From Candidatus Poribacteria bacterium (lineage in GTDB: Bacteria > Poribacteria > WGA-4E > GCA-2687025): a DNA stretch of 64,000 nucleotides. The stretch's first letter is position 1, and every line of letters begins with the position of its first letter. The stretch spans positions 174,289 through 238,288 of the forward strand of contig JAPPNK010000015.1 in assembly GCA_028818695.1 (NCBI GenBank), given 5' to 3'. A program made the position numbers and the translations under genes. Below the pieces are notes generated by a model, which had not been told where the DNA came from, ran no database searches, and worked only from the letters and a program-made list of their open reading frames with translations. Below are positions 2,100 through 33,773 of the stretch, one piece after another.

Positions 2100-4247
2100 A
2101 TGAGGCGAACGAGTCGATTTGCGGTTGCGGCCGCGGTGTGTGGAACGGCATGGCTGGCTTGGAGTCAGGGACCTGGAGGTCCGCCGAATGAGGGTCCGCG
2201 GATCGATCTTGTTGAGCAGTTTGACGCGGACGGGGACGGACGCTTGAACGACGCGGAGCGGGCTGAAGCGCGCGTGTTCGCGCAGCAAAATCCGCAGCGC
2301 AGAGGGCCGGGCAGACGCGGAGGCAGGCAAGAAACTCCCGCCGCGCCGGTCGTCTTAGAGCCGAAATCGACCCTTGAACAAGACCTGGAAGCGAGCCGTC
2401 AAAACGCGGTCGACGAAAGCGCCGAGCTTTATGACGATTCCGTCCTGCGCACCTTGTACTTGCGCTTTCCGAACAACGACTGGCATCAGGAGCTCGCCGA
2501 CTTTTACAACACGGGCGTGAATGTCCCCGCGGCGCTCATCGTGGACGGGCGGCGGTATGACGGCGTCGGCGTCCGTTTTCGCGGGAATTCGTCCTACTTC
2601 ACGCTCGGCGCTTCCCTCAAAAAATCGTTCAACCTTTCCATGAACCATGACGACCCTGACCAGCGGCTTTACGGGTATCGGACGCTGAACCTGCTAAACT
2701 CGCATGCGGATCCGTCTTTTTTGCGCGAGGCGCTGTTTAGCCGCGTCAGCCGGGAGTATATGCCGGCGCTGAAGGTGAACTTTGTGCGTCTTGTTGTGAA
2801 CGGCGAGAACTGGGGCGTCTATGTGAATTCGCAGCAGTTCAACAGCGATTTCATTGAAGAAGCGTACGGAGAACGGGGCGGCGACCGATGGAAGGTTCCC
2901 GCCAACCCACGAGGCGGCGACAGCGGACTCGCCCTGATGGAAGGCGGCGTGGAGGCGTATCGGCGGCGGTATGAGATCCGGTCAAGCGACAACGATGAGG
3001 CGTGGGAAAGCCTGATGGAGCTGTCGCGCGTTCTGAACGAAGCGCCGGCGGAGGAGCTGGCGGCGCAATTGGAGCCGATTTTGGATGTGGACGAGACGCT
3101 GCGCTTTCTGGCGCTGGACAATGCGTTCATTGATCAGGACGGGTATATGAGCCGCGCGAGCGATTATAACCTTTACCGCGGAACGGACGGGCGGTTTCAT
3201 CTCATTTCGCATGACAACAACGAGACGTTCCGCTTCGGCGGCCGCGGCGGCGGTCCGAGCGACACAGGCGGCGATCCGCAGGTTTCTCCGCTCGTTCATC
3301 TTGAGAACCCGGATCGTCCGTTGATACGGCGCTTGTTGTCGAACGCGGATTTGCAGGCGCGTTATCTGGGGTATGTGCGCTATATCGCGCAGGAGTGGCT
3401 TGACTGGGAGCGTCTTGGGCAGGTTGCGGAAGCGTACCGGTCGTTGATCAGCGCCGAGCTGGAGCGGGACGACAAGAAGCTGACCTCGTATGACGCTTTC
3501 AGGCGCAGCGTGGAGGAAGACATTGCGCGTGAAGGCGGAGGCAGTCCGCCGGGCGGCGCCCCCGCTCCGCCGCCGATCGATTTCAACCCGTTTGGACCGC
3601 CTCCTGAAGGCAGCGATCCGCCGACAGCGGCTCAAGGACCCCCGCCCGCCCCCGGCGGACAGAGCGGACGAGGCGGCGGACGAACAACTCCCGGGCTGAA
3701 ACGGTTCGCAACGGAGCGGCGCGCCTATCTGCTGGCGCAGACGGAAGGCGTCCCCGCCCTTGAGCCTCCGCAGACGCGCAGGCGCGTCGGCGATCCGATC
3801 CCGACCGTCGATTTCCCTGTCGTCATCAATGAGCTGATGGCGCTGAACCGCGCTGCGGTGGAAGGTCCCGACGGCGCATTTTCCGATTGGATTGAGCTCT
3901 ACAACCGCTCCGACAAGGCGGTCGATTTGAGCGGAATGGCGCTCTCGGACGATCCTGACGAGCGGGACAAGTGGCGTTTTCCTGACGGGACGGTCATCGC
4001 CGCCGGCGGTTATCTGATTGTCTGGGCGGACGGCGGAGCGAAGAATGCCGAAGGGCTGCATGCGTCGTTTCGGTTGAGCCGAGAGGGGGAGACGCTGCTG
4101 TTGACAGGTTTGGCGGACGACGGCTTCCCTGCGCTGGACGCGGTTCGGTTTGAGGAGCAGGAGGAGGATGTGTCGTTCGGGCGGACGGCGGACGGGGCGT
4201 TTGCGCGCCTGCGCCCTTCCCCAGGACAGCCGAACGAAGAGCTGTAG
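2100..4247 (+). CDS. CotH-like protein with N-terminal EF-hand and C-terminal lamin-tail domain
   Basis: The 715-residue product starts with a probable signal segment (residues 1-22), then an EF-hand-like calcium loop FDADGDGRLND near residue 41. The middle (about 100-480) matches the CotH kinase-like fold seen in spore coat CotH and many secreted bacterial proteins, including a GVRFRGNSS stretch and the SHDNNETF segment expected of the active site. A Pro/Gly-rich linker leads to a C-terminal lamin-tail domain (about 580-715; VVINELMALN, SDWIELYN). CotH proteins phosphorylate secreted proteins in known cases, but whether this one is active is not known. Likely secreted. The ATG is preceded by AAGGAG. 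Confidence 0.82.
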   Translation: MRRTSRFAVAAAVCGTAWLAWSQGPGGPPNEGPRIDLVEQFDADGDGRLNDAERAEARVFAQQNPQRRGPGRRGGRQETPAAPVVLEPKSTLEQDLEASRQNAVDESAELYDDSVLRTLYLRFPNNDWHQELADFYNTGVNVPAALIVDGRRYDGVGVRFRGNSSYFTLGASLKKSFNLSMNHDDPDQRLYGYRTLNLLNSHADPSFLREALFSRVSREYMPALKVNFVRLVVNGENWGVYVNSQQFNSDFIEEAYGERGGDRWKVPANPRGGDSGLALMEGGVEAYRRRYEIRSSDNDEAWESLMELSRVLNEAPAEELAAQLEPILDVDETLRFLALDNAFIDQDGYMSRASDYNLYRGTDGRFHLISHDNNETFRFGGRGGGPSDTGGDPQVSPLVHLENPDRPLIRRLLSNADLQARYLGYVRYIAQEWLDWERLGQVAEAYRSLISAELERDDKKLTSYDAFRRSVEEDIAREGGGSPPGGAPAPPPIDFNPFGPPPEGSDPPTAAQGPPPAPGGQSGRGGGRTTPGLKRFATERRAYLLAQTEGVPALEPPQTRRRVGDPIPTVDFPVVINELMALNRAAVEGPDGAFSDWIELYNRSDKAVDLSGMALSDDPDERDKWRFPDGTVIAAGGYLIVWADGGAKNAEGLHASFRLSREGETLLLTGLADDGFPALDAVRFEEQEEDVSFGRTADGAFARLRPSPGQPNEEL

Positions 4248-4249
4248 CC

Positions 4250-5671
4250 GTGTCGAAAAAGAGGACGCTTCTTGCTGTTGGAATTGCCGTTGCGGCGGCG
4301 TTGATTTATGTCGGCGCTCGGGTCGTCCTGCTCCGCTATGACTCTGTTGAGATGCCGTATGCAGATCTTCTGGAGACGGCAGAGCAAAAGTGGGGTCTGC
4401 ATTTTTTGAACGATTGGAGCGTCTGGGAAAAGCGGGTTGATCGGCATATCAAAGAGTTTTTTAAAACACAGAGGCGAAGAAAAAAGCCTCACGAAGTAGA
4501 GTATTTCAAATGGCGCTACCAGCGGCTTTGGGCTATGGACGAGGACCTGGACGATCTTCCGCTTCCCGCCAGCCTTGAGCCGGAGGGCGGGATAAGTGAA
4601 AATTCTGGAGGGACGATAGCGACCGGCGGCGGGAAGGGGAGAAGCGTCGAACCTGCCATGATCGTGGACCTGCGGGAAGGGAAGGTCCTTGAGGGCGGCT
4701 TGGTTGACGGCAGCAGAAGATTTGACGGCGGATTCAGCTTTGTCAGCAGCGGCAGCCTTGTTTTAACGGATGAAGAGCATTATCGGGCGATGTATTGGGG
4801 CCTCCCTCCCGTTCAGAAAATGTACATGGTTTCGGGTCAGCCTTATCTGACGGTTTATATTGGAAGCGCCGACCCGCTGGGGCATTCCATCGGCGAATTG
4901 CCGCCCGAGCTGGACCCTGCGGAACCGTTTAAGCAGATGGACGACGCCGAGCTGCAGTTGGCGGTTCGGCAGCTGGCGCAGATCGTGAACCGCCCGACGT
5001 CGCATCAAGAAAAAACGCTGCGCGCCGCGTCTCAAGACCCTGTCGACAGGATGTATGTCGCCGACCTGTTCAACGGCATTATGCGGGCATGGCGGGAGCG
5101 CCGATCTGCATGGGCGGATGTCTCGATGACGCCGCTGCTGCCCGCTTCAGCCGGCATTGAGCAAGCGAAAGCTGTCAAAGCCGACCCCGCGGAAGAGTCG
5201 AACCCTCCGCCCGAAGGGACGCCGTATCTCTACGCGGACGCCTATGCCAGCCCCATTCGCGCCGTCGGCAAGATTCATGGCAAGCTGAACGGATCGGCAA
5301 GGGGCGGGAGCGTAACGTATAAGGGCAGGGGGGTCGCAGACTCGTCCATCGCGTTCATCGACAACGGAGCGTCGCCTCCCATTTCCGAAACCTATTCTTA
5401 TCTAGGGAAGAAGTCAGGTCCCATTCGAGATGGCGATGAGGGGTATGGAGAGGCGCACATTCGATTATTTAACGGGTGGTCAAGGCAGGTCAAGAATCTC
5501 AACGCGCGGACATACTGCCCATGGGACAAGTTCTGGCTTTGGCTGAACGATCCCGCGCGTTATTCGATTTCAAGCCAAGCCAGCGCCATAATTCAAGATG
5601 ACGGCGCCTTTCCCGAAGTGTGGGGAAGCCGCGAGAGTCGAGCGCGTTATCCTTCAAAAGCGCCAAATTAA
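4250..5671 (+). CDS. Membrane-anchored protein of unknown function
   Basis: No family is recognised. The GTG start lies 2 bases after the CotH gene stop, so translation is probably coupled. The 473-residue product has one N-terminal membrane segment (about residues 7-27) after a short basic start, suggesting an exported domain held in the membrane. A basic Arg/Lys patch (about 73-82) follows, and the rest is soluble, rich in Gly, Pro, Trp and Tyr, with a single cysteine near the C-terminus. Sequence such as PLGHSIGELPPELDP and repeated Ala/Ser/Gly stretches gives no clear motif. Context suggests a partner of the secreted CotH-like protein. Confidence 0.6.
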   Translation: MSKKRTLLAVGIAVAAALIYVGARVVLLRYDSVEMPYADLLETAEQKWGLHFLNDWSVWEKRVDRHIKEFFKTQRRRKKPHEVEYFKWRYQRLWAMDEDLDDLPLPASLEPEGGISENSGGTIATGGGKGRSVEPAMIVDLREGKVLEGGLVDGSRRFDGGFSFVSSGSLVLTDEEHYRAMYWGLPPVQKMYMVSGQPYLTVYIGSADPLGHSIGELPPELDPAEPFKQMDDAELQLAVRQLAQIVNRPTSHQEKTLRAASQDPVDRMYVADLFNGIMRAWRERRSAWADVSMTPLLPASAGIEQAKAVKADPAEESNPPPEGTPYLYADAYASPIRAVGKIHGKLNGSARGGSVTYKGRGVADSSIAFIDNGASPPISETYSYLGKKSGPIRDGDEGYGEAHIRLFNGWSRQVKNLNARTYCPWDKFWLWLNDPARYSISSQASAIIQDDGAFPEVWGSRESRARYPSKAPN

Positions 5672-5869
5672 GCGGTCAGATCGGCGGGCTATCGTTTAAA
5701 AATGCGGGTTGCCGCCTGCATGCGCTGCGTTTTTGTGCGATTCCTTGCGCATTCAGCTTGCCATCGCCCGTCATTACAGCGTATATTAATTGACTGCGCC
5801 GCTGATCGGCATGGGCGGGGAAAGCGCCTGCGTTTATGCGTTTTAAAAAACGGCAAACGCAAACTTTGC
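5672..5869 (+). other. Intergenic region ahead of the ribosomal superoperon
   Basis: The 329-base gap between the anchored protein and rpsL holds the promoter at 5870-5898 and the leader hairpin at 5955-5980. Its first 198 bases show no convincing gene. A 93-codon open frame spans 5702-5983 but runs through the promoter, has no ribosome site and looks like chance. No clear terminator for the upstream operon was found. Confidence 0.5.
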
Positions 5870-5898
5870 TTGACGCATGCCAGAGTCGGCGTTACTAT
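5870..5898 (+). promoter_or_regulatory. Sigma70-like promoter of the str-S10-spc-alpha superoperon
   Basis: TTGACG at 5870-5875 and TACTAT at 5893-5898 are separated by exactly 17 bases. This is the best promoter match in the window and lies about 100 bases upstream of rpsL, where transcription of the ribosomal genes must start. It predicts initiation near 5905 and a leader of roughly 95 nucleotides. Confidence 0.75.
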
Positions 5899-5954
5899 TG
5901 TTTTCTTGGTATGGGCGGCGTGTTTTTTTGAACGCCGTTTGTTCAGCGCATGTT

Positions 5955-5980
5955 TGAAAGCCTCCTTGACGAGGCTTTCA
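5955..5980 (+). promoter_or_regulatory. Leader stem-loop just upstream of the rpsL ribosome-binding site
   Basis: TGAAAGCCTC (5955-5964) and GAGGCTTTCA (5971-5980) form a perfect 10-bp stem with a 6-base loop. It ends 10 bases before the GGAG at 5991-5994 that serves the rpsL ATG at 6001. There is no T-run after the stem, so it is not a simple terminator. Position suggests an RNA operator or a 5' stabilising structure; ribosomal operons are often autoregulated through such leaders, but the ligand is unknown. Confidence 0.55.
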
Positions 5981-6000
5981 TAATGAATATGGAGCGGTTT

Positions 6001-6369
6001 ATGCCTACGGTCAACCAGTTAGTTCGGAAGGGTCGCAAGCGTACGACCAAGAAAAGCAAATCGCCTGCGCTGGAAAGATCGCCGCAGCGTCAGGGCATCT
6101 GTCTGCAGGTGCGGACAAAGCCGCCGAAGAAACCGAATTCGGCGCTGCGCAAGATCGCGCGCGTGCGTCTCACAAACGGGCGCGAAATCACGGCGTACAT
6201 ACCTGGCATTGACCATAACCTGAACGAACACAGCTCCGTCCTTGTGCGCGGCGGAAATGTGCGCGACCTTCCGAATGTGGGCTACCATATCGTGCGCGGA
6301 ACGCGCGAATGCGACGGCGTTGAGAACCGCAAGCAGGGCCGCTCAAAATACGGCGCAAAGCGGCGGTAA
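6001..6369 (+). CDS. rpsL: 30S ribosomal protein S12
   Basis: 122-residue S12 of the decoding centre. The conserved [10 protein letters not shown] loop contains K43, and the second decoding loop reads RGGNVRDLP with Arg at position 88, where most bacteria have Lys. Lys-to-Arg at this position is a well-known streptomycin-resistance change. D89, the usual methylthiolated Asp, is kept, while position 92 is Asn instead of the usual Gly. The ATG at 6001 gives the standard [12 protein letters not shown] start and has GGAG 6 bases upstream; an upstream in-frame ATG overlaps that site. First gene of the superoperon. Confidence 0.98.
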
Positions 6370-6393
6370 TTTTTAAGCAGGAGAGGAATCGGC

Positions 6394-6867
6394 ATGCCGA
6401 GACGTAACGCAGCCGAACGGCGGCCAACGCCGCCCGACCCAGTGTACGGGAGCGTGGACCTTCAGAAGTTTATCAACAGCATCATGCTGAAGGGCAAGAA
6501 AAGCGTTGCGGAGCGCATCGTGTACGGCTCACTGGATGTGATCGGCGACCGGACGGGGCGCAATCCGCGCGAGGTGTTTGACGAGGCGCTGGACAATGTG
6601 AAGCCTGTGGTGGAGATTCGACCGCGGCGCGTCGGCGCGCAGACCTACCAGGTGCCGGTGGAGGTTCGGCCTGAGCGGCGCCTGTCGCTGGCGTTTCGCT
6701 GGATCATCACCGCGGCGCGGGAGGCGCGCAACGAAAAGACGATGTCGGCGCGTTTAGCCTCGGAGCTGCTGGACGCTTCCCGCTCCGAAGGGCATGCAAT
6801 TCGCCGAAAAGAAGAGACGCACCGCATGGCAGAAGCGAACAAAGCGTTTTCGCACTACCGCTGGTAG
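6394..6867 (+). CDS. rpsG: 30S ribosomal protein S7
   Basis: 157-residue S7, a primary 16S rRNA binder that nucleates the 30S head and contacts the E site. The start [10 protein letters not shown], the [12 protein letters not shown] segment and the conserved central QVPVEV-RP block are typical. Length is normal. It follows rpsL by 24 bases with AGGAGAGG upstream and precedes fusA by 12 bases, the classical str order. In E. coli S7 represses this operon by binding the rpsL-rpsG gap. The gap here is too short for a comparable structure, so regulation may have moved to the rpsL leader hairpin (inference). Confidence 0.98.
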
Positions 6868-6879
6868 AAGGGGCTGACC

Positions 6880-8994
<2,115 letters not shown>

Positions 8995-9024
8995 GACTAG
9001 AAACACCGCAAAGGAGTAGCCGAT

Positions 9025-10215
9025 ATGGCGCGCGGAAAATTTGAGCGGACTAAACCGCATGTTAACGTTGGAACCATTGGGCATGTCGATCATGGCAAGA
9101 CGACGCTGACGGCAGCCATCACCCTCATTCAGTCGAATCGGGGGCTTTCCGAAGTGCGCGACTTCGATAGCATCGACAACGCGCCGGAGGAACGCGAGCG
9201 CGGAATCACCATCCAGACCGCCCACGTCGAATATGAAACCGAGAACCGCCACTACGCCCATGTGGACTGCCCCGGTCATGCGGACTATATCAAGAACATG
9301 ATCACGGGAGCCGCCCAGATGGACGGAGCCATCTTGGTCGTATCCGCCGCCGACGGACCGATGCCGCAGACCCGCGAGCATGTGCTGCTGGCGCGGCAGG
9401 TGAACGTCCCCGCCCTTGTCGTCTTTCTCAACAAGGTCGATATGGTGGACGACGAGGAGCTGGTTGAGCTGGTCGAGCTGGAGGTGCGGGAGCTGCTGAG
9501 CGAGTATGAGTTTCCTGGGGACGACATCCCGGTTGTCATGGGCTCGGCGTTGAACGCTCTTGAGTCGGGCGACGCCGAGGGCGACGGAGCCTGCATCGTT
9601 GAGCTGATGGACGCTGTGGACGAGTATATCCCGGAGCCGGAGCGCGACATCGACCGCCCGTTCCTGATGCCGATTGAGGATGTGTTCAGCATCTCTGGGC
9701 GCGGCACCGTTGTGACGGGGCGCATTGAGCGCGGGAAAGTGACGGTCGGCGACGCGGTCGAAATCGTCGGAATTCAGCCGACCCGCGCAACGGTCGCCAC
9801 CGGAGTTGAGATGTTCAACAAGCAGCTGGACGAAGGCATCGCAGGCGACAACGCGGGAGTGCTTCTGCGCGGAACGGCGCGCGACGAGGTGGAGCGCGGG
9901 CAGGTGCTGGCGGCTCCAAACTCCATTCTGCCGCACAAAAGCTTCAAGGCGGAGGTGTATGTGTTGAAAGGCGAAGAGGGCGGGCGTAAAACCCCCTTCT
10001 TTTCCGGCTACAGGCCGCAGTTCTACTTCCGAACAACCGACGTGACGGGCGCGGTGACGCTGGATGAAAGCATCGAGATGGTCATGCCCGGCGACAACGC
10101 GACGTTCAACGTGGAACTGATCACCCCGATCGCCATGGACGAAGGTCTGCGCTTTGCAATCCGCGAAGGCAGCCGAACCGTTGGAGCCGGCGTCGTTACC
10201 GAGATACTCGATTAA
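9025..10215 (+). CDS. tuf: Elongation factor Tu
   Basis: 396-residue EF-Tu, which delivers aminoacyl-tRNA as a GTP complex. GHVDHGKT (19-26), the switch I region ending [13 protein letters not shown] and NKVD mark the GTPase domain; domains II and III follow with the expected [10 protein letters not shown] and [13 protein letters not shown] blocks. The start [20 protein letters not shown] is standard with AAGGAG upstream. Only 15 bases separate it from rpsJ, so the str and S10 operons are joined. The switch I segment [15 protein letters not shown] is shorter and more acidic than the usual form but keeps all key positions. No second tuf copy is in the window. Confidence 0.98.
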
Positions 10216-10230
10216 CGGCGGGGGAGCTGG

Positions 10231-10539
10231 ATGGCGACAACGATACGCATAAAGTTGGAGGCCTACGACCACCGTCTGCTTGACAGGTCCGTGTCGGAGA
10301 TATGCGACATCATCAAGCAGACGGGGGCGTTGGTGAGCGGTCCCGTTCCGTTGCCGACCCATCGCAAGGTCTGGACGGTGAACCGCAGCACATTTGTGGA
10401 TAAGAAATCGCGCGAACAGTTTGAGATGCGCATACATAAGCGCCTGATTGATGTGACTGACCATACGCCGAGAACGATGGACGCTCTCGGGCAGTTTGAT
10501 CTGCCGTCCGGCATCAACATCAAAGTGGCGTTGAAGTAG
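10231..10539 (+). CDS. rpsJ: 30S ribosomal protein S10
   Basis: 102-residue S10 (NusE), a 30S head protein that in E. coli also joins the NusB antitermination complex. [14 protein letters not shown] near the start and the [14 protein letters not shown] loop are diagnostic. Length is normal. ATG at 10231 has GGGGGAG upstream. It opens the S10 part of the superoperon, 15 bases after tuf and 11 before rplC, so there is no room for a separate S10 promoter or the long L4-controlled leader known from E. coli. Confidence 0.98.
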
Positions 10540-10550
10540 AGGATAAAACG

Positions 10551-11186
10551 ATGAGCATCGGCTTGATCGGTACCAAAATTGGCATGACGCGCGTGTTTGA
10601 CGAGACGGGGATTTCCGTGGGCGTTACGGTTATCCAGGCAGGTCCCTGTCCCGTCGCGCAGGTGAAGACGCCTGAGCGCGACTCGTATTCCGCCGTTCAG
10701 CTCGGCTACGGCTCCCGCAAGCGTCCGAACCGTCCAACGCGCGGGCATTTTGAAAAATCAGGCGCGGAGCCGACGCGCGCGCTGCGCGAATTTCGCATTG
10801 ACGATCCGTCCGAATACGCGGTCGGAGACCTGATTCGCGTCGAGGATCTGTTCGCTTCAGGCGAATATGTGGATGTGAGCGGCGTCTCAAAGGGGCGCGG
10901 GTTTGCGGGCGTTGTGAAGCGCTGGGGCTTTGCCGGACAGAAAGCGAGCCACGGCGCGGAGAAAAATCACCGCCGACCCGGCTCTATCGGCTGCAGCGCG
11001 ACGCCTTCCCGCGTTGTGAAAGGGCGCAAAATGCCCGGACGCATGGGCGGCGAGCGCAAGACGGTCCAGAACCTAAAGGTGATCCAGACGGACGCCGAGA
11101 ACAACTTGATTGTGGTGAAGGGCGCGGCGCCCGGACCGAACGGCGGCTTTGTGATTGTGCGCAAGGCGGCGAAACGGTCCAGCTAG
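10551..11186 (+). CDS. rplC: 50S ribosomal protein L3
   Basis: 211-residue L3, an early 50S assembly protein whose long extension reaches the peptidyl transferase centre. The start [16 protein letters not shown], the [16 protein letters not shown] block and the conserved [16 protein letters not shown] loop are typical. Length is normal. Start ATG at 10551 follows rpsJ by 11 bases. Confidence 0.98.
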
Positions 11187-11206
11187 CAGAGGAAAGACGT
11201 CCCAAG

Positions 11207-12034
11207 ATGGAATTGCGGATAGTAGATCAATCAGGCGCGGACGCAGGATCGGTGGCGGCGCCCGCTCTCTTGGCGGAGGGCGAGATTCACATGGCGGCGC
11301 TGCATCAGGTTGTGAACGCTTATTTGGCAAATAAGCGCAGCGGCACATCGAAGGTGAAGACGCGCAGCGAAGTGCGCGGAAGCGGACGCAAAATGTTCCG
11401 CCAAAAAGGGCTCGGCAGAGCGCGTATGGGCGACCGGCAGTCTCCCATACGGGTCGGCGGCGGAATCATCTTCGGACCGACGCCGCGCAGCTACCGCCAG
11501 AAGACTCCCCGAAAGATGAAACAGCTCGCGCTGCTCTCGGCTCTGCGCGATAAGCTGCAGAGCGGAGGAATCAAACTGGTCGAATCGTTCCCAGAGAACG
11601 GAGAGGTTCCAAAGACAAAGCGCGTCGTCTCTCTTTTGAAAAGCGTCGGCGTCAACCGGGAGAAGACGCTGTTGGTGACCGCCGAGAGCAACCCATGGCT
11701 GCTCATTTCGTCCCGAAATGTGCCGTATGTTGAAGCGGCGTTGAGCAGTCAGATACATCCGTATCAGATACTGACGCGCGACACGCTCATCTTTTCGGTG
11801 GAGGCTTGGGAAGCGCTGCTCTCCCGCTTGGGCGTGGAGGATGCGCCGGCGATAAAGCCTCCCTCTGAGGCGCAGGAAACGCCTGTTGAAGAATCTCCAG
11901 CTGAAGAGGCGGTTGAAGAAACGCCGGCGGAGCAGGAGCCTGTTGAAGAAGCTCCAGCGGAATCCGAAGAGGCGGAGCAGGAGGCGCCTGAAGAAGAGCG
12001 CAAAAACGATGAAGAAGAATCGGAGGCGCCCTGA
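11207..12034 (+). CDS. rplD: 50S ribosomal protein L4 with acidic C-terminal tail
   Basis: The first 205-210 residues are an ordinary L4, with the exposed-loop signature SGRKMFRQKGLGRARMG and the C-terminal LLITRD-like segment (ILTRDTLIFS). About 65 further residues follow, made almost wholly of Glu, Pro, Ala and Gln (repeats such as EETPAE and VEEAPAE). This tail is strongly acidic and probably disordered; a usual L4 ends near 205 residues. The gene overlaps rplW by one base (TGATG), so the tail is part of the coupled frame. L4 is an autogenous regulator in E. coli; whether this L4 regulates is unknown. Confidence 0.96.
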   Translation: MELRIVDQSGADAGSVAAPALLAEGEIHMAALHQVVNAYLANKRSGTSKVKTRSEVRGSGRKMFRQKGLGRARMGDRQSPIRVGGGIIFGPTPRSYRQKTPRKMKQLALLSALRDKLQSGGIKLVESFPENGEVPKTKRVVSLLKSVGVNREKTLLVTAESNPWLLISSRNVPYVEAALSSQIHPYQILTRDTLIFSVEAWEALLSRLGVEDAPAIKPPSEAQETPVEESPAEEAVEETPAEQEPVEEAPAESEEAEQEAPEEERKNDEEESEAP

Positions 12035-12384
12035 TGGCGATGGACCCCTATAAGGTTTTTCAGCGTCCGCTGATGACCGAAAAATCGACGATACAAAAAG
12101 ACAAATACCGCGAACGCTTGGGCGCCGAATCCTATGTGAAATACACATTGGAGGTGGATATGAGGGCGACGAAGCAGGATATTCGCCGCGCCATCGAGAC
12201 GCTGTTCCCCGAAACGGAGGGACAGATTATCAAGATCAACACGATGCGCAAGCAGGGAAAGCGGCGCGATTCGGGACGTTTGAGCCGCTTCCGCCGCTTT
12301 CGGCCGGGACGCTCAGCCGGGCAAAAAAAAGCGATCGTGACGCTGCGCGGCAACGTTACGATAACGCAATTTGAAGGAGCGTGA
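12034..12384 (+). CDS. rplW: 50S ribosomal protein L23
   Basis: 116-residue L23, which sits at the exit tunnel and docks trigger factor and [12 protein letters not shown] near the start and the [12 protein letters not shown] and [10 protein letters not shown] blocks are diagnostic. It is slightly longer than usual because of an insert after residue 22 ([15 protein letters not shown]). The ATG shares one base with the rplD stop; the stop overlaps the alternative upstream start codons of rplB. Confidence 0.97.
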
Positions 12385-12386
12385 TG

Positions 12387-13244
12387 ATGGCAAAGAAGCA
12401 CCGCCCCTATACGCCGTCGCGCCGTTTTATGACGACCTCCGAGTTTTCGGAGATCACCGCCTCAAAGCCGAAGAAGTCGCTCACGAGCGGCAAAAAACGC
12501 ATCAGCGGGCGCAATTCGAAGGGGCGCATCACAATGCGTCGGCGCGGAGGCGGACATAAACGCCGATACCGCGTCATCGATTTCAAGCGGAACAAGACAG
12601 GCATGCCGGCGTCGGTCGTCTCCATCGAATACGATCCGAACCGTTCGGCGCGGATTGCGCTGGTGCGGTATGAGGACGGCGAGGAGCGGTACATCTTGGC
12701 GCCACATGGTTTGAAGGTCGGCGATTCTGTCCAGTCGGGTCCGGGCGCCGGCTTCAATGTCGGCAACGCGATGCCTCTGGAGAACATGCCGCTCGGCAGC
12801 GTGATCCACAACATCGAAATGCGTCCTGGGAAGGGCGGTCAACTGGCGCGCAGCGCGGGCGGATTCGCTCGCCTCATGGCGCGGGAGGGCAGATATGCGA
12901 CGATCCTGCTGCCGTCCGGCGAACAGCGCATGGTGCTGTCGCGCTGCGTTGCGACGCTGGGACAGGTTGGAAACATTGACCATGAGAATGTGGTGATCGG
13001 AAAGGCGGGCCGCTCGCGCTGGCTTGGACGGCGCCCGAAGGTGCGCGGCGTAGCGATGAACCCTGTCGACCATCCGCACGGCGGAGGCGAAGGGAAAAGC
13101 TCCGGCGGCGGCAGCTCCGGCGGCGGCGACCACAAGAGCCGGCATCCGGTCACGCCGTGGGGCGTCCCGACGAAGGGGCGCAAGACGCGGAAGAAAAACA
13201 AAGCGTCGAGTCGATTGATTTTGTCGCGTCGGAAGAAGCGTTAG
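12387..13244 (+). CDS. rplB: 50S ribosomal protein L2
   Basis: 285-residue L2, needed for subunit joining and peptidyl transfer. Diagnostic blocks are [34 protein letters not shown] and the C-terminal [15 protein letters not shown] containing the conserved functional His. A Gly/Ser run (about residues 237-250) follows. Three start codons lie in a row (GTG 12381, ATG 12384, ATG 12387); the last is chosen because GGAG at 12376-12379 is then 7 bases away. Confidence 0.97.
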
Positions 13245-27192: not shown

Positions 27193-28026
27193 TCAGTTCC
27201 GCCGCTGATGCCGGCTGTACAGCATGACCACCTCCGATTTGGCGAGCGACGGGTTGCCGGCGGTGCGCGCCGCCGCCTCTCTCCAGTCGATGCGGCGCAT
27301 GACCTCCGCGACGCCTGGAGCGTTGGCGGCGATGAAATAGTGCGAGGTCGGCGAGAGAGCGCGCGGGTTGAACTTGACGCGGCCCGCGTTCGCCCCGACG
27401 CGCTGTATAGCGAAATCTGCCTCGCCCGGCTTCGCAAAACGAAAATCGGGGTGCGTCAACGGCGGCGGCGTCATGGAGCGCGCCGACGGACGCTTCAACC
27501 AGATCTGAAAGACGCATGGAACGGCGTAAGGCGCGCCGTCCAGCGTGAACGAATCGCGCGGCAGAAGAAGCTCCGCTTCCAAATGAAAAAACCGATTCAA
27601 CCGCCGCGCCGTACTTTCTTTTTGAAAAGTGCGCGGATGAATCATGGCGACAGCGTCCGCAAAGCTGGCTGCATGGTTGAAGAACTTGACAGCGAGGCTC
27701 GCGTTTTTGCCGAACGGCGGATTTCCAACAACAATGATCCGCCCCGCCTCAACCGGCGGCGTCCACTCTAAAAAATCCGCCTGTATGATGTCAGGGCGGG
27801 GGGGCGGCTCAATGTCCAGCCCGATCTTCGGCTCCGGCATCAGATCGAAGAATGCGCCCGCCCCCGCCGACGGCTCTATCCACAAATCCCACTTCGCCGG
27901 GCAGCGCTCCGCCAAGAGCGCCATGCAGCGTTTCGCGGCGGATCTGTTTGTGTAAAAGCAGTCGCGCCGCCGTCGGCTCTCCGCCCCGCTTTTTTCTTCG
28001 CTGCCGACATCGAACAGCCGATTCAC
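27193..28026 (-). CDS. N6-adenine-type DNA methyltransferase-like protein
   Basis: 277-residue SAM-dependent methyltransferase. Motif I is EPSAGAGAFF (51-60), an acidic motif II follows (GLDIEP), and catalytic motif IV is NPPFG (102-106), the pattern of amino-methyltransferases acting on DNA adenine or rRNA/protein amide groups. No separate target-recognition domain or restriction gene is seen. The GTG start overlaps the stop of the PhyH gene by one base (TAGTG), so the two are coupled. An orphan DNA methylase is most likely; a methylase of RNA or protein is possible. Confidence 0.75.
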   Translation of the reverse strand: MNRLFDVGSEEKSGAESRRRRDCFYTNRSAAKRCMALLAERCPAKWDLWIEPSAGAGAFFDLMPEPKIGLDIEPPPRPDIIQADFLEWTPPVEAGRIIVVGNPPFGKNASLAVKFFNHAASFADAVAMIHPRTFQKESTARRLNRFFHLEAELLLPRDSFTLDGAPYAVPCVFQIWLKRPSARSMTPPPLTHPDFRFAKPGEADFAIQRVGANAGRVKFNPRALSPTSHYFIAANAPGVAEVMRRIDWREAAARTAGNPSLAKSEVVMLYSRHQRRN

Positions 28027-28884: not shown

Positions 28885-29583
28885 TTAGAACTTTATACCA
28901 ATAGGATTTTGGCGAATCAAATTTAAGGCATGACAAATATCATGGACGTGCACGATACCAGTATTGTATAGGTAATAGCCGATTGGGGATTCCTTTCGCT
29001 CTTGATCTGGATAAACCTGTCCTAGAGCGTGGCGGAATCCATACACGACTCCGGCGACTGACAGATCGCTACTACGGTCATTCTTCGGATAGTAAACAAC
29101 AGGCCCTCCAGAAAACCCAGGGTTGTTATGACCGTCCAACATGATAGTGCCTTTGACAGTCTGAGATAGGATCGCCTTTTTCACGAATGGCAATGGAAAA
29201 TTTTTGTTAGATTCTAATGTAGCGTCGCTAACTATATCAAAAGGAAAACCAAGAAAATACACATCTTGTCCAAGGATCATCCCGGCTGCTGTAGGGTCCG
29301 AAGGCGGTAGGGTCAAAGAGTGTGTCGGTGAAATTAGAGTTTCAGCGGCTAGCACAGAAATATCAACATCCCCATCAGCGTGGCCGACCAACTTGATTGG
29401 AAGATTTTCCCATGTTCCCCCGCGTATAATTTCTATGCTGCTCTGACCGACAATACTTCCAACAAGATGCTTAGAAGCGATAATGTACTGGCGCTTTTCA
29501 AAGTCAATTGTAAAACAAGTCGCTCGTCTATTTCCAAATTGAATTTTGAACGTTCTTTCGAGAATATTTCTAGTAATCATCAT
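28885..29583 (-). CDS. Trypsin-like serine protease, AT-richer island gene
   Basis: 232-residue protein with the chymotrypsin-fold triad in order: H39 (ASKHLVG), D74 (GDVDISVLA) and S158 in NNPGFSGGPVVYY. There is no signal peptide or PDZ domain, so it is probably cytoplasmic, like proteases seen in bacterial conflict and signalling clusters. The start chosen is the first of two ATGs (29583, 29580), with GAGG 6 bases upstream. Base composition differs from neighbours: the 60 bases from 29161 hold only 21 G or C. This suggests recent transfer. Its leader is homologous to that of the repeat-protein gene at 29792-30175. Confidence 0.8.
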   Translation of the reverse strand: MMITRNILERTFKIQFGNRRATCFTIDFEKRQYIIASKHLVGSIVGQSSIEIIRGGTWENLPIKLVGHADGDVDISVLAAETLISPTHSLTLPPSDPTAAGMILGQDVYFLGFPFDIVSDATLESNKNFPLPFVKKAILSQTVKGTIMLDGHNNPGFSGGPVVYYPKNDRSSDLSVAGVVYGFRHALGQVYPDQERKESPIGYYLYNTGIVHVHDICHALNLIRQNPIGIKF

Positions 29584-29753
29584 TCCGTTCCTCTCTTTGA
29601 AGCGGGGCGAGCGTTGCTGTCCGCCCCTGTTTGATTCACATGGGGCGCAGTTTTCAGCGTAGAAATTTCTGCGCATGCGCGCGTCGCTTTGAGATCGACC
29701 TGTTTGCCAGAATGCGTATGTTCGTCCTTGTCGTTTGCGCTTGCGAAGTTCAA
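29580..29753 (-). CDS. Possible small upstream ORF coupled to the protease gene
   Basis: A 57-codon open frame begins with TTG at 29753 and its TGA overlaps the protease ATG by 4 bases. Its N-terminal half shares the pattern NDK-[DE]-x6-G-[KR]-QVDLK with the small frame at 30213-30329, and two of the compared codons differ only at the third base, which hints at coding. There is no clear ribosome site. It could be a leader peptide, a gene remnant, or chance inside a conserved leader. Confidence 0.3.
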   Translation of the reverse strand: MNFASANDKDEHTHSGKQVDLKATRACAEISTLKTAPHVNQTGADSNARPASKRGTE

Positions 29754-29791
29754 CAAGGCTGTGAATTGATACGGCTCGCGTCTATCTTCGC

Positions 29792-30175
29792 TTAGGCGCG
29801 TCGGTCAGTCAACACCATTATCACGTACGTGTACGTCTTTTTGTCCTCTGCGCCGATATCATTACCCATTATCTCAATAACATACCCTTCCTCCTCACGT
29901 TCATCCATCCACTTATCTAAGGCGGGTCCTTCATCTGACGCATTTACGTGCGTGATTCTGCGGTTTTTCATGTATCCGCCTTGATTTTCCTGAAGAGAAA
30001 GCTGTTGGACCATTGCCACATACTTGTACGATTTTTTGTCCTCCGCGCCGACATCAGTGCGCCATTTCTCAATAACATACCCTTCCTCCTCACGTTCATC
30101 CATCCACTTCCGTAAGGCGGGTTCTCCACCTGAATGCTTTACATGCGTGATTCTGCGGTATTCCATGTATTCCAT
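29792..30175 (-). CDS. Small protein of two near-identical 50-residue repeats
   Basis: 127-residue soluble protein made of two copies of one unit, residues 7-56 and 72-121. Each reads RRITHV..., then PAL-x-KWMDEREEEGYVIE, then D-x-GAEDKK-x-Y-x-YV-x-MV. The DNA repeats with a 195-base period and is almost identical over the central part. The shape (helix with E-E-E-G-Y-x-V-I, then an edge strand) loosely resembles DUF4177-type small domains, but this is a guess. ATG at 30175 is chosen for its upstream AAAGGGCGG; an earlier in-frame ATG at 30202 lacks one. Its neighbour is the trypsin-like protease. Confidence 0.7.
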   Translation of the reverse strand: MEYMEYRRITHVKHSGGEPALRKWMDEREEEGYVIEKWRTDVGAEDKKSYKYVAMVQQLSLQENQGGYMKNRRITHVNASDEGPALDKWMDEREEEGYVIEIMGNDIGAEDKKTYTYVIMVLTDRRA

Positions 30176-30212
30176 TGTATCCGCCCTTTCGGTTGTTTGC
30201 ATTCACAGCGAT

Positions 30213-30329
30213 TTAAGTTTCCTGAAGAGCGCGCTGCGCGCCATGCGAGGGCGGCTTGAGATCAACCTGCCGACCTTCTTGCATAAGCCCTTCCTTGTCG
30301 TTCTGCTTGCGAACCTCAATCTGTTTCAT
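30213..30329 (-). CDS. Possible small ORF in the repeat-protein leader
   Basis: A 38-codon frame from ATG 30329 to TAA 30213. The first ATG lies inside the extended -10 box, so translation more likely starts at the internal ATG 15 codons later, which has GGAAGGG just upstream, giving 23 residues. It shares NDK-E-x6-G-R-QVDLK with the frame at 29580-29753. Function unknown; it may be a regulatory leader peptide. Confidence 0.35.
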   Translation of the reverse strand: MKQIEVRKQNDKEGLMQEGRQVDLKPPSHGAQRALQET

Positions 30330-30336
30330 TATAACA
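30328..30336 (-). promoter_or_regulatory. Extended -10 promoter of the repeat-protein gene
   Basis: On the minus strand TGTTATAAT gives a perfect TATAAT with a TGn extension. The hexamer 17 bases upstream is poor, as is common for extended -10 promoters. It lies about 150 bases before the ATG at 30175. The matching place upstream of the protease gene reads CGTATCAAT, a weaker form. Confidence 0.55.
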
Positions 30337-30390: not shown

Positions 30391-30440
30391 GACTCTGGAT
30401 TCCCGCTTTCGCGGGAATGACGGCCGCAGGAGCGCGGGGA
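30391..30440 (+). repeat. Core palindrome of the dispersed intergenic repeat, copy 5
   Basis: GACTCTGGATTCCCGC...GCGGGAATGACGG contains a perfect 8-bp stem, ATTCCCGC (30399-30406) and GCGGGAAT (30411-30418), with a TTTC loop. This is the same block found in the larger repeat copies, but without their 25-base ends. It sits in the 444-base gap between 30203 and 30646. That gap also holds the leader ORF and promoter at 30213-30336 and the terminator at 30594. Confidence 0.55.
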
Positions 30441-30646: not shown

Positions 30647-31606
30647 TCACATAACGCCCGCTCCGACAGCCGCTCCGTTCAACCGGACATGCTGAACCCA
30701 TTGCCGGGCAAAACTCGCATATTCAGGGTTCAGCTCGATGCCGACAAATTCAACGCCTATCTCTTCAGCCGCGGCGCACTCGGAGCCTGTCCCCGCAAAC
30801 GGAACGAGCAGCCGTCCGCCGTCCGCGCCGATGCGGGACAGGATCAGCCGTTTTGCGAGCTCCATCGGCTTCTGCGTCGGATGTTTCAGGATGTCATGTT
30901 CGCGGTGCGCTTTCAGTTCCGCCGGCGGAAACAGCTTGCCGCCGCAGTCTCGGCATAGAAACCAGCGCTGCGACCTTCCCGCCCCGCCCGCCAGCGCCGG
31001 CGTTTTGAGAACGTCGCGCGGCAGGGCGCCGTTTTCATGCGCGTTATAGACGGTTCGGCGCCCCGTTTTGCCGTAGCGGGAGGGGGTGTCTTTCCGCTCG
31101 CGCCCCGCGTTTTTCATGAAGGCGGGCGTGTACGGCTCGCGTATCTGGTCAATCTCAAGCCGAGGGCGCGGACGGCCGGGCTTCCATAAACACAGGATCG
31201 TTTCGTGGGAGCGCTGCCAAAACTTTGAGGTCGGAGCCGCCTTGTTTGTGTAGTGCCAAACAAGCCAGCGCTGCCGCTCTATCGGGTAGAGGGACGCGAT
31301 TCGCGCGACAATTTCTGGAAAGCCGTAGAGATAAAGCAGCCCGTTGTCGGCGAGCAGCTGCAGGCTGTCGTCGATCCAGCCGCGCGCCCATTCGATATAT
31401 CGCTCTATCGGCATGTCGGCGCAGTTGTTGCCGAAGTCTTTGCCGATGTTGTAGGGCGGATCGGCGATGACAAGGTCGAATCGCTCGCCGCGCTGTTTCA
31501 GCTCCTGCAGCGCCTCTACAGCGTCCGCTTGCAGTATCATGGAGGCAGGCTTGAATTTCATCGGCGCCGCCGCTTTGTTCGTTTCGTCCGCTCTTTGCTC
31601 TGTCAT
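30647..31606 (-). CDS. Beta-class DNA methyltransferase (N4-cytosine or N6-adenine)
   Basis: 319-residue methylase. Catalytic motif DPPYNIG (49-55) precedes a target-recognition region, then HPTQKP, and the SAM-binding motif PFAGTGSE near the C-terminus, so the motif order is that of the beta class (like HinfI or CcrM methylases). The recognition region contains WFLCRDCGGKL, which may bind zinc. No restriction endonuclease gene is adjacent, so it is likely solitary, with a regulatory or protective role. It lies 81 bases downstream of atpA, where the rest of the ATP synthase genes would be expected. Confidence 0.87.
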   Translation of the reverse strand: MTEQRADETNKAAAPMKFKPASMILQADAVEALQELKQRGERFDLVIADPPYNIGKDFGNNCADMPIERYIEWARGWIDDSLQLLADNGLLYLYGFPEIVARIASLYPIERQRWLVWHYTNKAAPTSKFWQRSHETILCLWKPGRPRPRLEIDQIREPYTPAFMKNAGRERKDTPSRYGKTGRRTVYNAHENGALPRDVLKTPALAGGAGRSQRWFLCRDCGGKLFPPAELKAHREHDILKHPTQKPMELAKRLILSRIGADGGRLLVPFAGTGSECAAAEEIGVEFVGIELNPEYASFARQWVQHVRLNGAAVGAGVM

Positions 31607-31687
31607 GCGTCCCGTCGGCGTTTTGTCAAGATGCGTTGACCGATACTATAAACGCTTCGACAGGGGCAAACGGTACGAGAGAATGCG

Positions 31688-33214
31688 TTATGCGGCGACG
31701 GCTTGGAACCCTTTTTTGCAGTTTTCGATGGCGGCTGCGATCTGATCCAGTTCCTCGTCCGACAGCTTTTCGCCCGTTTCGATGCGTTCCACCAGTCCCG
31801 TTTCATGTTCCTCGAAATGATCGTGCATGGCGGTTTCAAACGCGCGGATTTCGTCGGTCGGGATGTCGTCGCACAGCCCCTGCCGTCCGGCGAAGATGCT
31901 CAGCAGCTGCTTCCAGTGTGGAAGCGGTTCAAACTGGTTCTGCTTCAGAAGCTCCGTCAGCTGTTCGCCGCGGCGCAGCTGCTCCTGCGTGGAGGCGTCC
32001 AGCTGCTCCGACCCGAATTGCGCGAACGATTGTATTTCGCGGAAACGCGCCAGCTCCGCCCGCAGCGGTCCGGAGACCTGTTTCATGGCGTCCGTCTGCG
32101 CGTTTCCCATGAGGCGCGAGACGGAGAGGCCCACATTCACCGCGGGGCGGACGCCGCCGTAAAACAGCCCAGGTTCCATGATGATCTGTCCGTCGGTGAT
32201 CGACCAGACGTTTGTCGGGATGTAGGTTGTTACATCCTCCTCCTGCGTTTCAATGATCGGAAGCGCCGTCATGGAGCCTGCGCCTTTTTCGTCGCTCATT
32301 TTGGCGGCGCGTTCCAGCAGCCTTGAGTGCAGGTAAAACACATCGCCTGGGTACGCTTCGCGCCCCGCCGGCCGCCGCAGGTTGAGCGACATCTCCCGAT
32401 ACGCCCATGCGTGCTTCGTGAGGTCGTCGTAGATGACGAGCGAATGCATGCCGTTGTCGCGGAAATATTCGGCGATGGCGCAGCCGGAGTAGGGAGCCAG
32501 CCAAAGAATTGGAGCCGGCTCGCTGGCGGTGGCGGAGATGACGGTTGTGTATTCCATCGCGCCGCGGTCCTCCAGCGCCTTGACCAGCTTGGCGACCGTG
32601 GAGCCTTTTTGCCCAATGGCGACATAGACGCACCGGACGCCGCTCTCTTTTTGGTTGATGATCGCGTCAACGCAGATGGCTGTTTTTCCGATCTGGCGGT
32701 CGCCGATGATGAGTTCGCGCTGCCCGCGTCCGACAGGCGTTGTGCCGTCGACGATCTTCAGCCCCGTCTGCATCGGCTCGCGCACCGGCTGCCGATCAAT
32801 GATGCCTGGCGCCTTCCGCTCTACAGGAAGATAGAGGTCCGTTTCGATGGGACCTTTTCCGTCCAGCGGGCGTCCCAGCGGATTGACGACGCGCCCGAGC
32901 AGCGCTTCGCCGACGGGAACCTCGACGATGCGGTTCGCCCTTTTGACGGGGTCGCCTTCCTTCACATGCGCGCTGTCTCCAAACAGCACGGCTCCGACAT
33001 TGTCCTCTTCGAGGTTCAGAGCCATCCCGAGTACATCGCCTGGGAATTCAAGCAGTTCGGCTGCCATGACGTTCTGTAGTCCGTGAACCCGCGCGATGCC
33101 GTCTCCGACCTGCAGAACGCTGCCGGCGTCGTACACATCTATTTCGGTTTCGAACTGCTCTAGCGATTCCCGGAGGATGCGCGAGATTTCGTCGGGTCTG
33201 ACCTGTTGCGCCAT
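31688..33214 (-). CDS. atpA: F-type ATP synthase subunit alpha
   Basis: 508-residue alpha subunit of the F1 headpiece. The non-catalytic nucleotide site has the P-loop GDRQIGKT (171-178; most bacteria have Thr where this has Ile175), and GRGQRELI and [18 protein letters not shown] are diagnostic. ATG at 33214 is preceded by AAAGGA and gives the normal length; the open frame extends upstream into atpH. It is the last atp gene here: atpG, atpD and atpC do not follow. Confidence 0.97.
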
Positions 33215-33224
33215 ATTCGATCCT

Positions 33225-33773
33225 TTACGCTGAAGAAGGTTGAGAGAGAATCTTTCGTATGCGTTCCAGCTGCGTTCGGAGCGAGCCGTCGTACACGGTG
33301 TCGCCGACGCGGGCGGTGAAGCCGGCGATGAGGCTCGGATCGCGCGCGACATTGAGGATCGTCCTGCGCCCGACCGCTTTTGTGAGCGCGTCGGACAGCG
33401 CCGCCTGTTGCCGTTCCGTCAGAGGCGCCGCGCTGACGACCTCCGCCCGTTCAACGCCTTCCGCTTCGTCCAGCTGCCGCAGCGCTTCCTCGAGGACCGC
33501 TTCCAGCTCGCGCTCGCGTTTGCGTTCGATCAGAAGCGTCAGAAAGGCGAGCGCAATGGGCGGCGCCTCTTCGTCAACGAGCCGGCGGAGCGCTTCCTGT
33601 TTGGCGGAGGGCGCAATCATCGGGTTCGCCAGAAAATTGCGCAGCGGCTCCGAGGATTCGAGCGTCCGCTGTAGATTTTCGAGTGGCTGGCGCAGCTGGG
33701 ACGCGCTCTGTTCCTGTTTTGCCGCGTGTAGGAGCGCTTTGGCGTATGCCCTTGCAGCGCGCGTATGTTTCAC
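33225..33773 (-). CDS. atpH: F-type ATP synthase subunit delta
   Basis: 182-residue delta (OSCP-like) subunit joining F1 to the peripheral stalk. The N-terminal helical domain ([17 protein letters not shown]) and the C-terminal [26 protein letters not shown] are family marks. Normal length, 10 bases before atpA and 10 after atpF. Confidence 0.95.

Follow-up and report, generated by a model that had tools for sequence, protein, structure and literature searches.

A 64,000-nucleotide stretch of Candidatus Poribacteria DNA (assembly GCA_028818695.1, contig JAPPNK010000015.1, positions 174,289 to 238,288; hereafter the window) carries a gene for a trypsin-like serine protease beside a gene for a small protein built of two repeats. 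The original prediction, made from the letters of the window, regarded the two as a possible undescribed module for regulated proteolysis or defence. The question raised by the locus is whether the genes do belong together and, if not, what the protease does. We tentatively favour the reading that this signal-less trypsin-family protein with an intact triad is a stand-alone intracellular protease engaged in phage–host conflict, and that the repeat protein is an unrelated local orphan. The two genes are as follows.

28885..29580, minus strand: stand-alone trypsin-like serine protease of 231 residues, predicted to be intracellular, with triad His38, Asp73 and Ser157 in a predicted fold
29792..30202, minus strand (136 residues, ATG at 30202), or 29792..30175 (127 residues): orphan tandem-repeat protein

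A stand-alone protease without a signal sequence

The likely start of the protease is the ATG at 29580–29578, which is favoured by the family and gives the same length, 231 residues, as database entry P0002. The predicted model is an S1 double barrel with an HtrA/DegS-like fold. Across 53 aligned rows the triad histidine is present in 50 (with gaps in 3), the aspartate in 53 and the serine in 52. A 236-residue translation scores 27.2 bits against Trypsin_2 (PF13365), for which the Pfam cut-off is 27.6, and this domain is annotated in the database for P0002 and for the other listed proteins of the family. No PDZ domain was matched by hmmscan at E ≤ 1, the 231 residues ending at the protease domain. 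The N terminus is not hydrophobic (12-residue maximum, −0.1), and none of the 120 members listed for the family, among them the entry for the window protease, reaches 2.0 on this measure of a hydrophobic N terminus; as controls, two distant relatives that look secreted gave 2.2 and 2.9. The description of the protein as a signal-less trypsin-like protease is upheld, and the protease is predicted, from its sequence and from the gene contexts of its relatives, to act inside the cell, probably against phage.

The protease belongs to a large, patchily distributed family of stand-alone proteins of about 230 residues, with more than a thousand homologues. It was met in 3 of 50,697 phage records and in 1 of 72,556 plasmid records. 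An identical sequence is shared by two loci (L044 and L046) whose bins are labelled Gemmatimonadetes and Acidobacteria and bear similar isolate names; this conflict of phyla is likely a binning error or artefact, and the two loci, being identical, were counted once as context. As had been claimed for the protease, the pair in the window is richer in AT than its surroundings, with a GC content of 43.4% in the protease gene and 47.5% in the repeat gene, versus 60.3–62.5% in the four neighbouring genes measured.

Relatives in prophages and restriction clusters

In IMG/VR, eight loci with relatives of the protease lie on prophage-like contigs. The ten proteins compared near these relatives, at least one per locus, all match PHROG terminase, endolysin, integrase or tape measure families; at L124, L126 and L127 the integrase alone was tested against PHROG. 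Two of the eight, L122 and L124, coincide with the GTDB loci L043 and L050, as their identical rows indicate. The protease start at L124 lies 28 nt beyond the end of the integrase gene, and at L125 the protease is encoded on the strand opposite the tail genes, with a GmrSD gene one gene away.

Chromosomal relatives occur in DNA-restriction clusters. At L101 the protease is embedded in a type I restriction operon (3105–12709) with the order hsdM, hsdS, protease, DUF4062/ATPase, hsdR; the protein beside it, between hsdS and hsdR, carries DUF4062/HATPase_c_4/Fic-like_C. At L046 HmaA-, HmaB- and HmaC-like genes surround the protease, which lies between the HmaA-like and HmaB-like genes, the NCBIfam matches being below cut-off. 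At L029 the protease has a type IIG-like restriction gene on one side and an HKD-Snf2 helicase on the other, and further settings include an Eco57I-like gene (L105), an Mrr nuclease (L038) and an nSTAND1 protein (L041). Also represented among the neighbours are resolvases, MoxR of ternary conflict systems, TIR and Fic, with 2 members each, and integrases, with 2 and 4. Because some relatives reside in prophages and in DNA-restriction clusters, the protease likely serves in conflict between bacteria and phages; of the proposal that it is an intracellular trypsin-like protease of conflict systems, the contexts (prophage-like contigs and type I, type IIG-like and Hma-like operons) are the part that stands. 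When the neighbours were compared with one another, no small protein proved to be shared, except in the identical L044/L046 pair and for a weak match over 63 residues.

The association was quantified in seven genomes of the window's class by counting genes of the N6_N4_Mtase, Eco57I, N6_Mtase and GmrSD families. Five of the seven protease genes have such a gene within 5 kb (at 1127, 1468, 4976, 2468 and 1360 bp), versus 1.01 expected (P = 8e-4), and four of seven have one within 3 kb (P = 0.002). Proximity to defence genes above chance in the class is suggestive. The window itself has two flanking features of this kind.

30647..31606, minus strand: N6/N4 DNA methyltransferase, context rather than a diagnostic feature in a genome with 41 such matches
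27193..28026, minus strand: type II DNA-methyltransferase-like gene at the opposite flank of the pair, likewise context

The pair is flanked on one side by a phytanoyl-CoA dioxygenase gene and on the other by a DNA methyltransferase gene. In the window (30647–33352) atpA is followed by the DNA methyltransferase gene in place of the gamma and beta genes; in the same-family genomes L098 and L099, although not in L095, atpA is followed by a gamma-like gene (judged by eye) and a beta-like gene.

Several observations weigh against a role in defence. When GmrSD is left out, the proximity falls to 4 of 7 within 5 kb (P = 0.008) and 3 of 7 within 3 kb (P = 0.018), and two of the seven class loci (G032 and G053) have none of the counted families within 5 kb. 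Since the families were partly chosen after the loci had been seen, the excess is suggestive. The two methylases flanking the pair are weak evidence, because N6_N4_Mtase (PF01555) has 41 matches in the window's genome of 3.57 Mb, versus 8 to 37 in six genomes of the same class (4.6–5.8 Mb). Of 216 large neighbours, 213 were scanned, and none of their families is present in more than 4 members of either half; the neighbours are diverse and several are housekeeping genes. Phylum labels are clustered in a quick tree (22 changes, against a minimum of 17 and 35.8 when shuffled), so horizontal transfer has not been rampant. Two distant prophage-borne relatives (L126 and L128; 29% identity) have a signal-peptide-like start, so that the wider family may include secreted members. 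A search by titles and opening abstract lines, with subscription papers and preprints mostly outside it, found no published account of the stand-alone family.

An alternative is a housekeeping role, in which a cytosolic HtrA-type protease would serve quality control or stress and would have spread by general horizontal transfer rather than by selection for defence. Its HtrA/DegS-like fold agrees with such a role, as do the several loci with ordinary neighbours; ten nearby genes were scanned, three of them without a match and three ordinary (carbamoyl-phosphate synthase, L,D-transpeptidase and FtsK). The patchy occurrence, the prophage-like contigs, the position inside restriction and Hma-like operons and the lack of a PDZ match in the sequence speak against it, and we consider the housekeeping role unlikely.

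The repeat protein is probably a local orphan

The shorter version of the repeat protein, starting at ATG 30175, has the length of database entry P0001 (127 residues). It contains two units.

30009..30170, minus strand: repeat unit 1, 83% identical to unit 2
29814..29975, minus strand: repeat unit 2, predicted with low confidence as strand-helix-strand-strand

The units are tandem, each of 50 residues and 162 nt with a spacing of 195, and share 83% identity as DNA and about 70% as protein; two tandem repeats are thus present as first described, and they are similar rather than near-identical. A central block of 43 nt is identical between them, the remainder differing at 27 sites (window 29814–30170), which suggests gene conversion or local constraint. 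Both repeats are open without a frameshift despite the 27 differences in 159 nt. Between them dN is 0.18 versus a dS of 0.23, so the constraint on the repeats is at most weak.

Homologues were sought widely. A protein database search returned two candidates, of which only the protein's own entry was a hit, and a trimmed repeat profile gave no hit among eight candidates. Among 97 genomes the protein was found in its own and in none of the 96 others searched. In 72 fetched loci with relatives of the protease, several of them re-fetches of the same place, none of 7,031 open reading frames matched the repeat domain at E < 1 (best E, 1.2), and the repeat protein was confirmed in none of 73 IMG/VR stretches. 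Matches of the repeat profile in the PDB comprised a short stretch of designed ankyrin proteins (three chains, E = 5e-4) and two others at E = 0.19 and 0.45. The match to ComJ was weak and under the cut-off.

Two family assignments were tried, and that to I66 was rejected. As an I66 peptidase inhibitor the repeat unit scores 18.1 bits (E = 0.0027) against a Pfam cut-off of 27 bits; repeat 2 alone gives 13.7 bits (E = 0.059) and repeat 1 gives none. As DUF4177, a likeness that seemed plausible by eye, it reaches an hhalign score of 11.7, a level equalled by 14 of 100 column shuffles; the repeat protein has no Pfam match to DUF4177, which itself has no match in the genome, and the likeness is limited to the predicted order of strand, helix, strand and strand. 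That structure was predicted from one sequence with a pLDDT of 47 and was left out of the fold search.

No clear relic of the repeat was found elsewhere in the locus; the best candidate, on the opposite strand upstream of the 5′ leader of the repeat gene (leader b, below), came from one of eight tests, in which 6 of 300 shuffles did as well. Within the scope of these searches the repeat protein is likely a local orphan, and it is probably not a fixed partner of the protease. A conserved protease–repeat module was not borne out; the neighbourhood survey that the original prediction had proposed found no conserved pairing as far as it was run, an outcome which that prediction had itself named as telling against the module.

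These data bear on whether the repeat frame is a gene at all. It might be a decaying or non-coding relic, leaving the protease alone to matter, as the lack of any homologue found and the weak constraint between the repeats would allow. Two repeats and their linker are nevertheless kept in one open frame, and entry P0001 is listed for two contigs, the longer one measuring 3.66 Mb, although this could come from a different assembly of that species; we consider a relic unlikely.

A common leader and the proposed history of the locus

The protease and repeat genes are about 210 bp apart, and both are preceded by a leader. The leaders and some smaller features are as follows.

29628..29753, minus strand: leader copy a, upstream of the protease (local alignment)
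30194..30319, minus strand: leader copy b, upstream of the repeat gene (local alignment)
29981..30004, minus strand: 24-nt likely relic of the 3′ end of the leader, in the linker between the repeats, with a 79% match to 30213–30236
29580..29756, minus strand: 58-residue frame with a TTG start in the protease leader; its stop codon and the start of the protease overlap (TGATG), and its coding status is weak
30213..30329, minus strand: 38-residue ATG frame in leader b; coding status weak

The leaders, about 125 bp long, are homologous as had been proposed, with an alignment score of 35 versus a maximum of 23 over 1000 base shuffles; extended to the start codon, the homology is at the level of chance, 340 of 1000 shuffles being equally good. 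Small reading frames do exist in both, but their coding status is weak: they share a frame only past a 1-nt indel, and over 17 codons they differ by 3 synonymous and 8 non-synonymous changes. The promoter-like sequence said to be shared was not recovered, since neither leader yielded a call for a sigma-70-like site and a lone TATAAT (30328–30333) falls beyond the stretch of homology. A short palindrome (ATTCCCGC...GCGGGAAT) stands directly upstream of leader b, at about 30397–30422 of the window; palindromes of this kind are often dispersed in bacterial genomes.

A DNA search of the window's genome with the leader gave only the leader itself as a strong match, followed by a 29-nt match at E = 0.01; this search also missed copy a, so other diverged copies could be missed. 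A degenerate leader motif matched exactly the two leaders in this genome and gave single matches in 4 of 79 other genomes, the backward control giving 6 matches. The leader matched no Rfam family at E ≤ 1. In comparisons with the regions ahead of other protease relatives (108 over 54 loci, prophage loci lying outside the test) the best excess was 2 points over 60 shuffles, compared with 12 points over 1000 shuffles for the pair itself. The common leader is most simply explained by local duplication, having been detected at this locus only. The AT-rich composition and patchy distribution of the protease fit a mobile origin.

In the history that we propose, the protease would have arrived horizontally at a locus where a single-repeat gene and its 5′ region were already present. 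This 5′ region and the repeat would have been duplicated in tandem; an internal deletion would have joined the two repeats in a single protein, and one copy of the leader would have come to precede the protease. Because a leader copy now precedes it, the two genes may have their 5′ control in common through descent and not by design, and co-expression with the repeat protein would be a by-product of the duplication. More widely, mobile elements and restriction operons would acquire the protease, which would cleave a phage or host protein once infection, or the failure of a DNA-based barrier, releases it. Action on the breach of such a barrier is proposed by analogy with PrrC-type guards, PrrC being a nested RNase guard, and from the position of the gene.

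Acquisition by mobile elements could also have served the elements themselves. Prophages might use the gene against competitors, altering or excluding them, or to disarm host defence, chromosomal copies being remnants. The opposite-strand or integrase-adjacent position in several prophage-like contigs would suit such cargo; the copies embedded in chromosomal restriction and Hma-like operons are unlike remnants, and a phage-serving role is distinctly unlikely.

The arrangement that first suggested a module could, in this lineage, still reflect a functional pair in which the repeat protein is predicted to inhibit or chaperone the protease or to serve as its substrate, and the leader would coordinate both. 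The genes are adjacent on the same strand, both are AT-rich, their leaders are homologous, and a stop codon overlaps the protease start; both repeats have been kept open, and there is the weak I66 inhibitor match (E = 0.0027). That match is under the cut-off (E = 0.059 for repeat 2 alone and none in repeat 1), the dN and dS values give little sign of strong constraint, and the repeat domain was found in no other fetched locus with a protease relative, so that we regard a pair as quite improbable. Highly improbable is the most far-reaching version, in which the solo family would be an undescribed class of anti-phage guards, a proteolytic counterpart of PrrC repeatedly captured by restriction and Hma operons and by prophages, with the freshly duplicated orphan acting here as a dedicated inhibitor or trigger under the shared leader.

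Should the stand-alone protease prove to protect against phage, it would be a one-gene defence effector that is easily tested and has more than 1000 homologues. It would also tie proteolysis directly to restriction operons, the known guards of which cut RNA or DNA. In addition, the locus seems to illustrate how a single-repeat gene, together with its 5′ region, can give rise to a two-repeat protein.

Comparison with known systems

The predicted fold of the protease domain and its triad resemble those of HtrA, DegS and DegP (S1C). An export signal or membrane anchor is usual in bacterial members of that group, whereas the window protease has no hydrophobic N terminus and no signal sequence; it also differs in having no PDZ match, in standing alone at about 230 residues and in having some relatives in mobile contexts.

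Trypsin-like proteases are already established in bacterial conflict systems. Protease-activated nucleases are described in Hachiman and AVAST, and the same gene pair also occurs in Lamassu and DRT (PMC12799240, accessible sections). Like these, the present family places a trypsin-like protease in anti-phage gene clusters, and one PADLOC LmuA profile matches the window protease (E = 1.2e-4, over the first 161 of 425 positions). Unlike the nuclease–protease pairs of those sections, it is a stand-alone reading frame, unfused to any defence enzyme, and directly upstream of it lies the gene for the repeat protein, which shows no metallo-beta-lactamase match. The trypsins that accompany Trypco1 or Trypco2 in MoxR-vWA conflict systems (PMC7159879, accessible sections) offer a further parallel, a trypsin-like peptidase adjoining a small protein; an hmmscan of the repeat protein and five nearby genes gave no Trypco1 or Trypco2 match at E ≤ 1, very weak matches being dropped by the HMMER filters. 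Hma, a three-gene candidate defence system of helicase, methylase and ATPase (PMC8565338, accessible sections), is linked to the family through the relative that lies between HmaA-like and HmaB-like genes, although the words 'protease' and 'trypsin' do not appear in the main text of that paper in the form available. Set beside these systems, the window protease is a credible new variant of the defence-associated trypsin-like proteases.
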